From NCBI GenBank assembly GCA_022649665.1, contig JALCOL010000005.1, positions 1 through 64,000 on the forward strand: a stretch of 64,000 nt of DNA, given 5' to 3'. Position 1 is the first letter of the stretch. Each line of letters starts with the position of its first letter. The DNA comes from Enterococcaceae bacterium. Lineage in GTDB: Bacteria; Bacillota; Bacilli; Lactobacillales; Enterococcaceae. The position numbers and the translations under genes were made by a program. Of the stretch, positions 54,325 through 61,363 are shown piece after piece. Below the pieces are notes generated by a model. It searched no databases and was not told the origin of the DNA. It saw nothing but the letters and a program-made list of their open reading frames with translations.

Positions 54325-54354
54325 TGCTTTCGTGCTAGGCATTTGAAAAGAAAA

Positions 54355-54363
54355 TGCTATAAT
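54355..54363 (+). promoter_or_regulatory. Extended -10 promoter of acpS-alr-mazF
   Basis: TGCTATAAT, an extended -10 with perfect hexamer; the -35 is poor. It lies 34 nt before acpS. Confidence 0.55.
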
Positions 54364-54396: not shown

Positions 54397-54753
54397 TTGA
54401 TTAGAGGAATCGGGATCGACCTGGTCGATTTAAAGCGGATCAATAAAATCATTGAAAGAAAGCCGCTTTTTATTAAACGAACCTTGACGCCGCGCGAATT
54501 CAGCGAATTTTCCAAGCTGGAGCGGCGCCGCCAGATCGAATATTTAGGCGGACGCTTCGCCTGTAAAGAAGCGTTCAGCAAAGCTTGGGGGACCGGGATC
54601 GGCAAAGTCGGTCTGCAGGAGATCGAGACACTGACGAACGACGCGGGAGCGCCGATCATGACAATGAGTCCTTTCGAGGGGATCCATCATGTCTCGATCA
54701 CCCATACAAAAGATTATGCGATGGCAGAAGTCATCTTAGAGGAAAGAGGCTAG
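54397..54753 (+). CDS. acpS: Holo-[acyl-carrier-protein] synthase
   Basis: Transfers phosphopantetheine from CoA to ACP for fatty-acid synthesis. 118 residues with the signature GIGIDLVDLKRI (Asp8) and LGGRFACKEAFSKAWG (Glu58), then HVSITHTKDYAMAEVILE. The start is TTG 54397 with AGAGGTGAT upstream. First gene of the conserved acpS-alr-mazF order. Confidence 0.95.
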   Translation: MIRGIGIDLVDLKRINKIIERKPLFIKRTLTPREFSEFSKLERRRQIEYLGGRFACKEAFSKAWGTGIGKVGLQEIETLTNDAGAPIMTMSPFEGIHHVSITHTKDYAMAEVILEERG

Positions 54754-54762
54754 TGATTTTCA

Positions 54763-55893
54763 ATGGTTATCGGCAGACATCGGGCGACACGGATCACAGT
54801 TGATCTGGGAGCGATCCGCGAAAATATCAAAAATGAGAAAAAAAGACTGGTTGGCAAAGAAATGTTTGCCGTCGTCAAAGCAGATGCGTATGGACACGGG
54901 GCAGTCCCGGTCGCAAAAGCGTGCGAAGAAGCAGGAGTCGACGGTTTTTGTGTCGCTGTGATGGATGAAGGGATCCAGTTGCGCGAAGCGGGCTTTACTG
55001 AACCGATCTTGATCTTGAGCATGATCGATCCGCAATATTTGAGTTTTTTGATGCAGTATGATCTTGCGGTGACCGCCGGGAGTCTCGAATGGCTCGAAGC
55101 GTGCGGCGGAGTTTGGAAAACGCTGCCGAACCGCCAGCCGCTCAAGATCCACTTGAAAGTTGATTCCGGGATGGGGCGGATCGGGTTCCGCACGCCGGAA
55201 GAAGTGCACGAAGCGGCACGCTTTTTACTAGATGAAGCGGCGTTCGATTTTGAAGGGATCTTCACGCATTTTGCGACCGCTGATGAAGCAGATGAGAAGT
55301 ATTACCAAAAACAAGCCAAACGTTTTTCGCAAGCGGTAGCGGCGCTGCCGGTACGTCCGCCTTACATCCACGTCAGCAATTCAGCGACCGCCTTGTGGCA
55401 TGACGCCGGCGAGATCGGCAACATGGTGCGCTACGGTGTCGCTTTATATGGACTGAATCCATCCGGGGCAGCGCTGGCACTTCCTTATCCGCTGAAACCC
55501 GCGCTTAGTATGACGAGCGAGCTGACGCAAGTCAAAGAAGTCGCGGCTGGTGAAGGGATCAGTTACGGTAAAACATATGTGACCGAAACGGCCGAGTGGA
55601 TCGGGACGATTCCGATCGGCTACGCGGATGGCTGGCTGCGGCGCATGCAAGGCTTTAAACTGCTCGTTGAAGGTGTGCGCTGTGAGATCATTGGGCGGAT
55701 TTGCATGGATCAGCTGATGATCCGTTTGCCAAAGCGTTTTCCGGAAGGGACGACGGTTACGTTAGTCGGTGCCAGCGGGAACGATGCGATCACTTTGGAA
55801 GAGATCGCTGAATATGCCGATACGATCCATTATGAAGTGGCATGCTGCTTCTCGCCGCGGATCCCGCGGGTATATCGCGATTCTGCGGATTGA
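54763..55893 (+). CDS. alr: Alanine racemase
   Basis: PLP enzyme that makes D-alanine for peptidoglycan and teichoic acids. 376 residues: the PLP lysine is Lys39 in [14 protein letters not shown], the second catalytic residue Tyr lies in [14 protein letters not shown], and [23 protein letters not shown] and [13 protein letters not shown] are conserved. The ATG is 9 nt after acpS. Downstream is mazF. Confidence 0.97.
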
Positions 55894-55916
55894 TCTTAAA
55901 AGAAAGGAGTGAGAAA

Positions 55917-56285
55917 ATGGTCAAGCGAGGAGATATCTTTTTTGCCGATTTGTCGCCGGTCATCGGCTCTGAGCAGGGGGGGACGCGGCCGGTTCTGATT
56001 ATTCAAAATAATCTTGGCAATCATTTTTCGCCGACAGTGATCGTTGCGGCGATCACGGCCAAAATCGCAAAACCCAAGCTGCCGACTCATATCGCGATCC
56101 GTGCGGTGGAAACCGGCATCGAACGCGATTCGGTGATTTTGCTGGAGCAGATCCGCACGATCGATAAATCGCGCCTCAAAGAGCGGGTGTGCCACTTGAC
56201 TCCCTGCATCATGGAGGCCGTCGATTTGGCACTTTTAGTCAGCGTCGGCGTCAAAGAGCCGGTCCAAACCCAAATCAATACATAG
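55917..56285 (+). CDS. mazF: MazF/PemK-family endoribonuclease toxin (NdoA type)
   Basis: 122 residues from ATG 55917 with AAAGGAGTGAG upstream. The fold motifs are [31 protein letters not shown] (with the catalytic Arg), [21 protein letters not shown] and [13 protein letters not shown]. Homologues cut single-stranded mRNA at short specific sites. In B. subtilis the antitoxin gene lies between alr and the toxin gene; here the gap is only 23 nt and no MazE is present on either side. Confidence 0.93.
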
Positions 56286-56287
56286 CA

Positions 56288-56431
56288 CAATAAAAACACG
56301 ATCGCAGCCGGCCGAATATTTATGTGACGGCGCGCCGCGCTCTGATTCGAAAGCCGCTTTCGATCGTGTACCGGGCCGAAAGTTCCTGGTCAAACCCCTG
56401 CAGTTCGGGTTTCGGCCGGGTTTTCTTTTTT
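56288..56431 (+). promoter_or_regulatory. Structured leader with putative attenuator ahead of the ABC exporter
   Basis: ACACGATCG (56296-56304) and CGATCGTGT (56361-56369) are a perfect 9-bp inverted repeat enclosing a GC-rich segment. A terminator hairpin follows: CCGGGCCGAAA (56371-56381) with TTTCGGCCGGG (56410-56420), 10 of 11 bp, and a T-rich tail. CCGGCCGAA (56308-56316) is perfectly complementary to the same 3' arm, so two alternative pairings exist. No known riboswitch consensus was recognised. Confidence 0.6.
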
Positions 56432-56459
56432 CTTTCGGTGCATAAAGGAGAATGGATAA

Positions 56460-58184
56460 ATGATACGCATATTGATGAAAAGCATTCGAGAATACAAAAA
56501 AGCTTCTTGGCTGACTCCGGCATTTGTGACCGGCGAAGTCTTGATGGATATCGTGATGCCGCTTTTAGTTGCAGCCTTGATCGATCAAGGGGTCAGCGCC
56601 GGCGATCAGGATAAAATATTTTATTACGGAATGTGGCTGACGGTGGCCGCGATCACCGCGCTGATCTTAGGGGTTTTGAGCGGCCGCTTTGCTGCGATCG
56701 CCTCGACGGGGTTTGCCAAAAATCTGCGCCGCGATATGTTCGTCAATATCCAAAGTTTTTCTTTTTCGAACATCGACCGCTTTTCGCCGTCGAGTTTGCT
56801 GACGCGTTTGACGACCGATGTGACGAATGTTCAAAACGCTTATCAGATGATCATTCGGCTCTTGATCAGAAGCCCGCTGATGTTTGTTTTTTCGATCGCG
56901 ATGGCCTTCAAAGTCAACGCAGAACTCGCTGGAACGATCCTCTGGGTCGTACCGGGCCTGTTCGTCGGCTTGTTTCTGATCATTCGTTTCGCGCATCCTC
57001 TATTCGACAAAGTTTTCAAGATCTATGATCAAATGAACAATGTCGTTCAAGAAAATCTGCAAGGGATCCGCGTGGTGAAAAGCTACGTGCGCGAAGATTA
57101 CGAAAACAAAAAATTTCAAGGGGTTTCGGAAAAGATCTATCGCAACTTTATGAAAGCTGAAAAGATCGTTGCCCTCAACTCGCCCTTGATGCAGTTTTCG
57201 AATTATTTGAGCATGCTTTTGGTTTCGTGGGTCGGCGCACATTTGATCGCCGCGCAGACGATGACGACTGGCGAACTCGTCAGTATGTTCACATACGTCG
57301 GTCAGATCTTGATGAGTTTGATGATGCTTTCAAACGTCTTCGTGATGGTCTTGATCGCGCGCACCAGTACCGAACGGATCGTCGCGGTCCTGCAAGAGAA
57401 AAGCGACTTGACGAATCCGGCGGAGCCGCTTGAAACGCTGGCGAACAGCGAGGTCGAATTCGACCATGTTTCATTCAGCTATTGCGATGATGTCCATAAA
57501 CTCGCTTTGAAAGATATTTCGTTCCACGCCAAAAGCGGCGAAGTGATCGGGATCGTCGGCGGCACCGGCAGTTCCAAATCGACGCTTGTCCAACTGATCC
57601 CGCGCCTTTATGATGTCACAAGCGGCAAACTTCTGGTCGGCGGGGCAGATGTCCGCAAATATGATCTTTCGCGGCTGCGCGATCAAGTCGCGATGGTCCT
57701 CCAAAATAATGTCCTTTTCAGCGGTACGATCGCTGAGAATCTGCGCTGGGGAAATCCGGAAGCGACACAGGCAGAACTGGAACGCGCTTGCCAGATCGCC
57801 CAAGCTGAAGAGTTTATTGCGACCCTTCCGGAAGGGTACGAAACGATGCTTTCTCAAGGCGGCACGAATCTGTCCGGCGGTCAAAAGCAGCGGCTCACGA
57901 TCGCGCGCGCACTTCTCAAGCAGCCGAAGATCTTGATCTTAGATGACTCGACGTCTGCGGTCGATACGCGGACCGACCGCTTGATCCGCGAAGGTTTGAA
58001 AAAAGCGATCCCCGGGATGACGACGTTTATCATTGCTCAGCGGATCGCCTCGGTCCAAGATGCTGACCGCACGATCGTCTTGGAAAATGGCCAGATCCAC
58101 GGCATCGGTACGCATGCTGAGCTGATGGCGCACGATCAGATCTATCAGGAAATGTACAATACGCAGCAGGAGGGATTCAAATAA
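56460..58184 (+). CDS. ABC exporter half-transporter, degenerate-site subunit (LmrC/YfiB type)
   Basis: 574 residues; six-helix exporter domain then NBD. Walker A is GGTGSSKST (about 367-375), with Ser in place of the last Gly of GxxGxGK; Walker B is ILILDDSTSAVD with Asp for the catalytic Glu; the signature LSGGQKQRL is intact. The subunit is therefore expected to form the impaired ATP site. AAAGGAG precedes the ATG. One nucleotide separates it from its partner gene. Expression is probably controlled by the leader upstream. Substrate unknown. Confidence 0.93.
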   Translation: MIRILMKSIREYKKASWLTPAFVTGEVLMDIVMPLLVAALIDQGVSAGDQDKIFYYGMWLTVAAITALILGVLSGRFAAIASTGFAKNLRRDMFVNIQSFSFSNIDRFSPSSLLTRLTTDVTNVQNAYQMIIRLLIRSPLMFVFSIAMAFKVNAELAGTILWVVPGLFVGLFLIIRFAHPLFDKVFKIYDQMNNVVQENLQGIRVVKSYVREDYENKKFQGVSEKIYRNFMKAEKIVALNSPLMQFSNYLSMLLVSWVGAHLIAAQTMTTGELVSMFTYVGQILMSLMMLSNVFVMVLIARTSTERIVAVLQEKSDLTNPAEPLETLANSEVEFDHVSFSYCDDVHKLALKDISFHAKSGEVIGIVGGTGSSKSTLVQLIPRLYDVTSGKLLVGGADVRKYDLSRLRDQVAMVLQNNVLFSGTIAENLRWGNPEATQAELERACQIAQAEEFIATLPEGYETMLSQGGTNLSGGQKQRLTIARALLKQPKILILDDSTSAVDTRTDRLIREGLKKAIPGMTTFIIAQRIASVQDADRTIVLENGQIHGIGTHAELMAHDQIYQEMYNTQQEGFK

Positions 58185-60071: not shown

Positions 60072-60243
60072 ATACTGTTTATCCAGGCTGTGCCAGCCTT
60101 CCGCTTCGAGAAATAAGAAGAAAAATCCAAAAATAGTTTCTTATATTTTGAGATTTTTCGGCTCCTGATCCGAAGAAGCTGCTTTTGAAACGCCATTTAT
60201 TCGGAAAAAGAGGCTGGGACATGACTTTTGTCCCAGCCTCTTT
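60072..60243 (+). repeat. Long, more diverged copy of the dispersed 3'-end element with terminator
   Basis: Same layout as 10418-10580 and 24412-24577, with several changes; the first part begins GGCTGTGCCAGCC. The terminator stem is identical, AGAGGCTGGGACA / TGTCCCAGCCTCT. It can also terminate the convergent usp gene. Confidence 0.85.
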
Positions 60244-60259
60244 ACTATATTCTATTCTT

Positions 60260-60742
60260 TTATTTATTTTTTTCTTTTTCAATTTTGATCGGTTTGCTTT
60301 CCAAGTCAGTCCGGACGATCAAGACGTCGCATGCGGCGTTGCGGATGACATATTCCGAAACAGAACCGATAAAGAGCCGTTCGACGGCATTCAAGCCAGT
60401 CGCTCCCATCATGAGGAGATCGACATGATGCTCTTCGGGCAGCTGTTTGGCGAGGATCGATTTCGGCGAGCCGAATTCCAAGACATAGCTGACTTCGTTG
60501 ACACCCAGTTTCTTTGCATATTCCGTGTATTCACCCAACGTTTTTTTCGCGGTTTCAGTTGCTTGATCTGCCAAAATATTGTCAAAAGACGAGACCGTTT
60601 GGAAAGCACGGGTATCAATGATGTGCGCTAAAATCAATTTGGCATGGTTCCTGAAGGCAACGTTTGCCGCTTTCTTGAACGCCAGCTCCGCTTCTTTCGA
60701 CCCGTCAACGGCAACCATGATCGTGCGATATTGTTGTAGCAT
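60260..60742 (-). CDS. Universal stress protein, UspA family
   Basis: 160 residues from ATG 60742 with GGAGGAG upstream (a TTG two codons earlier is possible). It has IMVAVDGSKEAELAFKKAAN at the N-terminus and GATGLNAVERLFIGSVSEYV as the ATP loop, then a Lys/Glu-rich tail. It is similar in layout to the Usp at 9879. It lies downstream of the 6S RNA locus on the same strand, the arrangement that gave the Lacto-usp RNA motif its name. Confidence 0.94.
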   Translation of the reverse strand: MLQQYRTIMVAVDGSKEAELAFKKAANVAFRNHAKLILAHIIDTRAFQTVSSFDNILADQATETAKKTLGEYTEYAKKLGVNEVSYVLEFGSPKSILAKQLPEEHHVDLLMMGATGLNAVERLFIGSVSEYVIRNAACDVLIVRTDLESKPIKIEKEKNK

Positions 60743-60821
60743 AAGCAACTCTCCTCCATTTGTTGATCCTTTTATTACGTTTATTTTAGCTCAAAAACCC
60801 CAAAAAAGGAAACGTTTCCTG

Positions 60822-61123: not shown

Positions 61124-61363
61124 AAAGAAAGCGGCTTGTCCGAAGACGAGCCGCCAAGGTCAAACTAAATGGGTAGATCCGTAGATGCCGTTTCTTATCC
61201 CATAGTATTGATCCCGCAAACAAGCAGGTGGGTCTTAAGGTTCATGGATTAGAACTACCAAGAGAAAAGGCATGTTCACACCAATCGCACAACAAAGTCC
61301 CGTATCAATGATAATATGTTCGGTCAACACAGCGAAGGATAACTCGTACATCACAGATTTCCC
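61124..61363 (-). ncRNA. ssrS: 6S RNA (Lacto-usp type)
   Basis: On the minus strand a promoter, TTGCGT-N17-TATTAT (61398-61370), starts a transcript near 61363. Its 5' segment (GGGAAATCTGTGATG) can pair with a 3' segment (CATCTACGGATCTACCC, 61187-61171), giving a closed rod of about 195 nt with a central region, as in 6S RNA. An intrinsic terminator with stem GCGGCTTGTC / GACGAGCCGC (61131-61154) and UUCG-like loop ends it. The position between rarA and a usp gene is the known context. There is no open frame. 6S RNA binds sigma-A RNA polymerase. Confidence 0.82.
61131..61154 (-). terminator. Terminator downstream of 6S RNA
   Basis: A 10-bp stem (one G-T pair) with a four-base loop and a T-rich tail (minus strand 61130-61124). 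Confidence 0.82.

Follow-up and report, generated by a model that had tools for sequence, protein, structure and literature searches.

An intrinsic terminator between mazF and a multidrug-type ABC exporter in an Enterococcaceae genome

How is a multidrug-type ABC exporter transcribed when an intrinsic terminator stands directly in front of its first gene, and does the RNA that carries this terminator regulate it? The question is raised by a leader in a 64,000-nucleotide stretch of DNA (the window) from an Enterococcaceae bacterium, whose genome of 2.37 Mb in 26 contigs is the only one of its genus in the set compared. The leader separates mazF, the last gene of an acpS-alr-mazF group, from a pair of exporter genes on the same strand (Table 1).

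The leader and its flanking genes

Within the exporter, two adjacent half-transporters each carry an ABC_membrane and an ABC_tran domain (Pfam), and the nearest solved chains to subunit A are 4q4j_A and 3qf4_A. The initial annotation had called the pair an LmrCD-type drug exporter; the domains and solved chains point to a heterodimeric multidrug-type ABC pair. We regard it as heterodimeric because the ATPase site of subunit A is degenerate by eye, with LDDS after Walker B and AQR at the H-loop; subunit B has the canonical LDEA and AHR (by eye). Among the matches listed, neither subunit reaches an NCBIfam curated cut-off. The closest relative is an exporter of Enterococcus canis, and since the pair is intact and ~68% identical to it, the exporter is presumably expressed. 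Downstream, between the exporter and a convergent universal stress protein gene (60260-60748, minus strand), a strong near-symmetrical hairpin followed by a T run (60207-60243, plus strand) is perhaps a shared terminator. Farther on lies a 6S RNA (61172-61362, minus strand; RF00013, 63 bits). At the other end of the locus, the gene preceding alr is presumably acpS, a name given by resemblance.

Hairpin 1 of the leader starts 11 nt past the mazF stop codon, is closed by the perfect 9-bp inverted repeat of ACACGATCG (56296-56304) and CGATCGTGT (56361-56369), and is finished before the terminator is transcribed. It contains CCGGCCGAA (56308-56316), the exact complement of TTCGGCCGG (56411-56419) on the 3′ arm of the terminator, as well as an ATG directly followed by TGA (56322-56327), which shares the mazF reading frame and, by eye, lacks a Shine-Dalgarno sequence. 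The inverted repeat, the competing segment, the ATG-TGA and the terminator hairpin with its T tail had all been described in the initial annotation; checks of sequence and folding find them real and correctly placed. Two 5′ segments close by can pair almost equally strongly with the 3′ arm of the terminator (56407-56420). Pairing with 56371-56381 gives the stem originally described, and pairing with 56385-56397 gives a compact hairpin, the minimum free energy structure once RNA past the T tract is present; 56375-56382 is also able to pair with 56432-56439. A further possible pairing had been missed, between the end of the mazF coding sequence (56254-56271) and 56407-56424.

Table 1. Features of the exporter locus, in window coordinates.
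Feature	Position	Strand	Basis or remark
Promoter-like site TAGGCA-16-TATAAT	54336-54363	+	10/12 consensus match only; TG before -10; ahead of acpS
acpS	54397-54753	+	Precedes alr; name by resemblance
alr, alanine racemase	54763-55893	+	TIGR00492, 367 bits against a cut-off of 168
mazF/PemK-family gene	55917-56285	+	PF02452, E 2.9e-33; last gene before the leader
mazF tail, possible antiterminator strand	56254-56271	+	Base-pair probabilities on 5′-truncated RNA
Leader	56286-56459	+	Between mazF (end of acpS-alr-mazF) and exporter subunit A
Hairpin 1	56296-56369	+	-29.8 kcal/mol, z -2.2; 9-bp perfect base stem
Competing segment CCGGCCGAA	56308-56316	+	Exact complement of 56411-56419
Intrinsic terminator	56371-56431	+	3′ arm 56407-56420, T tract 56421-56431; -21.7 kcal/mol in terminator scan
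Shine-Dalgarno AAGGAG of exporter subunit A	56445-56450	+	By eye
ABC exporter subunit A, 574 aa	56460-58184	+	PF00664 and PF00005
ABC exporter subunit B, 627 aa	58186-60069	+	PF00664 and PF00005

Transcription of the exporter in the window and its relatives

A scan of the window for the sigma-70 consensus, which other promoter types would escape, finds no plus-strand site matching at least 9 of 12 positions between 54363 and 56713. The nearest upstream plus-strand site of this quality for the exporter is the one ahead of acpS (54336-54363). Sites at this threshold are within chance (13, against 10.3 ± 3.3 in shuffles), and within 300 nt upstream of the exporter there is no sigma-70-like site of even 8/12. 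Because the 28 nt that separate the T tract from the exporter ATG are too few to hold a promoter and no 8/12 site lies in those 300 nt, transcription most likely arrives by read-through, and the simplest reading of the sequence is that it enters from the acpS-alr-mazF unit.

We therefore incline, if only slightly, to the view that the exporter sits behind an intrinsic terminator and is made from read-through of upstream transcription. The exporter genes would then form the far end of the acpS-alr-mazF transcription unit, or of a unit that starts at an unrecognised weak promoter just upstream. As polymerase moves through the leader, hairpin 1 would fold first and the terminator second; most transcripts would stop at 56421-56431, with the exporter made from those that read through, and a changed terminator efficiency would change the level of the pump. 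With terminator efficiency setting this level, the leader would act, in a loose sense of the term, as a transcription attenuator like the one upstream of patA. We infer the upstream origin of transcription, the partial termination and the tuning of the terminator by a signal.

A strong rival arises because the leader directly follows mazF: the hairpin may be an ordinary operon terminator that ends acpS-alr-mazF, with the genes once lying between lost, the exporter supplied by leakage through it or by a promoter that escaped recognition, no regulation at the terminator, and the repeat of CCGGCCGAA a coincidence. This is a serious possibility, to which we give tentative credence. A terminator lies at most 150 nt from the stop codon in 12 of the 23 family mazF genes examined, window included (11 of the 22 others). 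In each of the six relatives compared for synteny, mazF and the exporter share a strand, the exporter following after 1-7 kb that hold unrelated genes; in five of these six a terminator comes soon after mazF. The terminator in the window may thus descend from a mazF-operon terminator after loss of the intervening genes. Against this rival, an exporter on an ordinary terminator's far side is left without a promoter, and the additional hairpin 1 (z -2.2) exceeds what a simple terminator needs. An origin in the mazF operon would also be compatible with gating, the terminator having been captured as the exporter's gate.

The mazF gene has features of its own. Its gap to alr is only 23 nt (within 54763-56285), and therefore no mazE antitoxin gene fits between the two. 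Some MazF enzymes cleave RNA at UACAU, and this motif (T ACA TAA/TAG) overlaps the mazF stop codon in 9 of the 23 family genes, from 7 genera (loci L143-L169), including the window, where TACAT occupies 56279-56283; the overlap occurs despite differing C-terminal tails. MazF may therefore cleave the mRNA that encodes it. For E. coli mazEF, post-transcriptional autoregulation is described in the part of PMC5888573 used here.

How is the orthologous exporter preceded elsewhere in the family? Among 105 genomes, 69 (70 places) match the exporter at E ≤ 1e-205 and 36 have no match; G071, whose match starts at residue 48, and a second place in G066 (58% identity) were dropped, leaving 68 genomes. 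Counting a terminator as near when it is at least as stable as -10 kcal/mol and its T tract begins no more than 62 nt from the start codon, we find one in 10 of the 68: the window (G000), seven g14 genomes (G013, G089, G090, G091, G092, G094, G095), G003 (g4) and G032 (g7). The other 58 orthologues have none; in G026 (g14) the terminator lies farther upstream, behind a promoter-like site, and in g10 the upstream gene typically has its terminator 80-190 nt from the exporter start, followed by such a site. A MarR-like gene overlaps the exporter start or ends at most 45 nt from it in 20 of the 68 (all 18 of g8, G016 and G001); the one checked among these, in G105, is MarR by Pfam (E 2.3e-7). No genome combines a near terminator with an overlapping MarR-type gene (0/68), and 38 have neither. 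The survey suggests that an orthologous exporter is controlled differently within one family, by an overlapping MarR-type gene or by a leader terminator, depending on genus.

The near terminators of the relatives are short hairpins close to where transcription is expected to begin, 34-51 nt ahead of the start codon; they adjoin promoters of their own and are not homologous in sequence to the leader in the window. Ten relatives' exporter leaders each carry a promoter-like site of at least 8/12 within the 300 nt upstream. It stands just ahead of the hairpin as TTGAAA-17-TAAAGT in G013/L013, G094 and G095, TTGAAG-17-TAAAGT in G090 and G092, TTGACA-17-GACAAT in G003 and TGGTTA-17-TACAAT in G032; by eye, the sites are TTGTAA-17-TAGAGT and TTGTAA-17-TACAGT in G089 and G091, and TTGCAA-17-TACAGT in G026. 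A hairpin with a T run near the expected exporter transcription start is seen at L013, L180, L182, L184, L185, L179 and L181 (g14), L006 and L020. The covariation count for the g14 hairpin (alignment A2) used four of nine sequences: G094 is nearly the same as G013; G089, G091 and G026 have differing hairpins; and G093 has none. In this alignment 95.3% of 64 cells are paired, against at most 54.7% when slid, and 3 of 16 pairs are changed on both sides; of 500 shuffles, 14 reach the observed share of paired cells, 14 the covariation score and 90 the number of pairs changed on both sides. It is possible that the g14-type exporter hairpins are short attenuators or operators.

Folding of the leader RNA

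Whether the leader switches is a separate question from whether it terminates. Of 5000 dinucleotide shuffles, 22 contain a match of at least 9 nt between the upstream 85 nt and the 12-nt 3′ arm, and 45 of 2000 contain a perfect inverted repeat of at least 9 bp. The stability of hairpin 1 is equalled in 28 of 1000 shuffles (z -2.2) and that of the terminator stem in 101 of 1000 (z -1.3); the whole-leader fold has z -2.7, with none of 200 shuffles as stable. Among 269 terminator-like hairpins in 464 kb (the 64-kb window plus 400 kb of the same genome), an upstream match of 9 nt is seen for one other and of 8 nt for two; the value of 9 for the leader refers to a hand-set 3′ arm (56409-56420), and the automatic definition, which ends its hairpin 5 nt later, scores it 6. 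By simple arithmetic, with ~37 such hairpins per 64 kb, chance alone would give a 9-nt match in roughly one of every seven windows, which speaks for coincidence and an ordinary operon terminator.

In the unconstrained RNA to 56431, the terminator has a probability of ~0.86 and the 9-nt antiterminator formed by CCGGCCGAA one of ~5e-6. Unperturbed, this antiterminator is worse than the terminator by 8.5-10 kcal/mol, since hairpin 1 forms earlier and already sequesters 56308-56316. It needs the 5′ arm of hairpin 1 to be covered to about 56300: with the RNA covered from 56286 to 56299 its probability is 0.2, and to 56305 it is 0.94. Covering the first 20 nt lowers the native terminator from 0.86 to 0.06, and a drop of at least 0.5 occurs in only 8 of 1000 shuffles of the upstream part, although the 20-nt block length was picked after earlier folds were seen; this rarity argues against an ordinary operon terminator. 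A stricter measure, from >0.9 to <0.2, was reached by 0 of 1000 shuffles, yet the native RNA (0.858) fails it too, and the drop of at least 0.5 was used instead. A ribosome on the mazF stop codon was considered as the agent that frees 56308-56316 and rejected: its edge would presumably lie at ~56295, where nothing changes, and the flip needs ~56300.

A second candidate antiterminator, the mazF tail, emerges from a scan of 5′ truncations (RNA to 56425). Ribosome edges from 56261 to 56294 leave the terminator at 0.85-0.86, and it falls to 0.00-0.07 at 56249-56255 and to 0.00-0.01 at 56207-56219; the tail antiterminator reaches 0.84, with hairpin 1 between the pairing strands, and also takes up some of the T tract. 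A ribosome-controlled attenuator with mazF as leader cistron could work on this basis. Ribosomes finishing mazF would cover 56254-56271 and let the terminator form, and a stall upstream of this stretch would let the tail pair with 56407-56424, so that the exporter is read; the C-terminal tails of MazF differ between relatives, and because of this variation the stretch would be free to evolve as RNA. If so, the pump would be induced by translation inhibitors, as BmrB does for bmrCD. We consider such a mechanism unlikely, however. The response is irregular, with the terminator back at 0.84 at edge 56222 and mostly at 0.4-0.86 farther upstream, and the footprint arithmetic uses an assumed size; moreover, drug induction has been demonstrated for BmrB, a leader peptide of 53 aa, whereas mazF is a full gene. 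The background is also telling: of 268 other hairpins in the 464 kb, a set that includes hairpins within genes, 181 reach a maximum above 0.8, and on 5′ truncation 27 of the 268 go from above 0.8 to a minimum below 0.05 (32 below 0.1, 34 below 0.2), and 20 have at least as many switching positions as the six in the window. Because background hairpins switch similarly, our confidence in a ribosome model is lowered. A more elaborate version, in which the position of ribosomes on the last codons of a toxin-family mazF gates the pairing of tail and 3′ arm, stalling drugs open the exporter and MazF cleavage at UACAU locks it off, appears quite improbable.

The same comparison tempers the idea of a switch in general. 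Since 27 of 268 hairpins switch as strongly, computed bistability is no strong evidence, and the count speaks for an ordinary operon terminator. The two candidate antiterminators (56308-56316 and 56254-56271) are each dominant only with part of the RNA masked. The initial annotation had proposed attenuator logic, with two segments competing for one partner; the competing segment is real and the RNA does flip in computation, but the pairing has a probability of ~1e-5 when unperturbed and such switching is common in the genome. A ribosome-based mechanism at the ATG-TGA, also suggested there, did not hold up: this mini-ORF, without a Shine-Dalgarno sequence, encodes no leader peptide, and as the terminator stays at 0.85 for ribosome edges from 56309 to 56342, ribosomes halted there would not, by computation, favour antitermination. 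A switch is thus weakly supported and, within the read-through reading that we prefer, regulated switching in the exporter leader is possible but less likely than not.

Known RNA classes and known exporter leaders

A ligand-binding riboswitch or a T-box would suit a long structured leader (whole-leader z -2.7), and we rate either as very improbable. Searching the 64-kb window with Rfam 15 at the gathering score returns only the 6S RNA and nothing at the leader, in line with the initial annotation, which matched it to no known riboswitch class. The sole Rfam match at E ≤ 5 on 56200-56480, to a CRISPR repeat, scores 14.2 bits against 50 and is due to chance. The leader has no second copy in its own genome and no match in the 104 other family genomes at E ≤ 0.001 (best E 0.0127, over 24 nt). 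At E ≤ 1, 62 of the 104 genomes give matches that are short (mostly 16-33 nt) and scattered, and these we take as chance. No description of the exporter leader was noticed in the literature searched, the coverage of which was partial.

By analogy, the leader most likely belongs to a known kind of control, represented by patAB, bmrCD and the predicted ABC-leaders. Within the family, the other Enterococcaceae exporters with a near terminator resemble it in having that terminator 34-51 nt before an orthologous start codon, and differ in that theirs are short hairpins at their own promoter, of non-homologous sequence. The ABC-leaders of Naville and Gautheret, as presented in the portion of PMC2965389 consulted, are predicted premature terminators and antiterminators before ABC transporter operons, one of which precedes a multidrug exporter in Lactobacillus gasseri and L. 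johnsonii. They were called from cross-species motifs, in contrast to the exporter leader here, which has no shared motif.

In the bmrB leader of bmrCD in Bacillus subtilis, too, a terminator with alternative stem-loops precedes a heterodimeric ABC exporter, according to the sections of PMC4191407 cited here. There, a small translated leader ORF spans the stem-loops and responds to drugs, whereas in the window only mazF ends just before hairpin 1. No translated leader ORF of the BmrB type lies over the stem-loops in the ORF list, since the ATG at 56322 and a GTG ORF at 56324 both lack a Shine-Dalgarno sequence by eye.

The patA leader of PatAB in Streptococcus pneumoniae also has a Rho-independent terminator a few tens of nucleotides before the first exporter gene, and the passages of PMC4319486 drawn on here describe a predicted set of terminator, anti-terminator and anti-anti-terminator, with terminator mutations shown to raise expression. 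The locus in the window has the corresponding arrangement, a terminator (56371-56431) directly before the exporter with no promoter-like site after it and a promoter presumably upstream. It differs in having mazF immediately upstream, and the likeness is one of anatomy. Such terminators are of interest because intrinsic drug tolerance is set by terminators ahead of multidrug ABC exporters; in the pneumococcus, on the evidence of those same passages, loss of the terminator raises resistance (PMC4319486).
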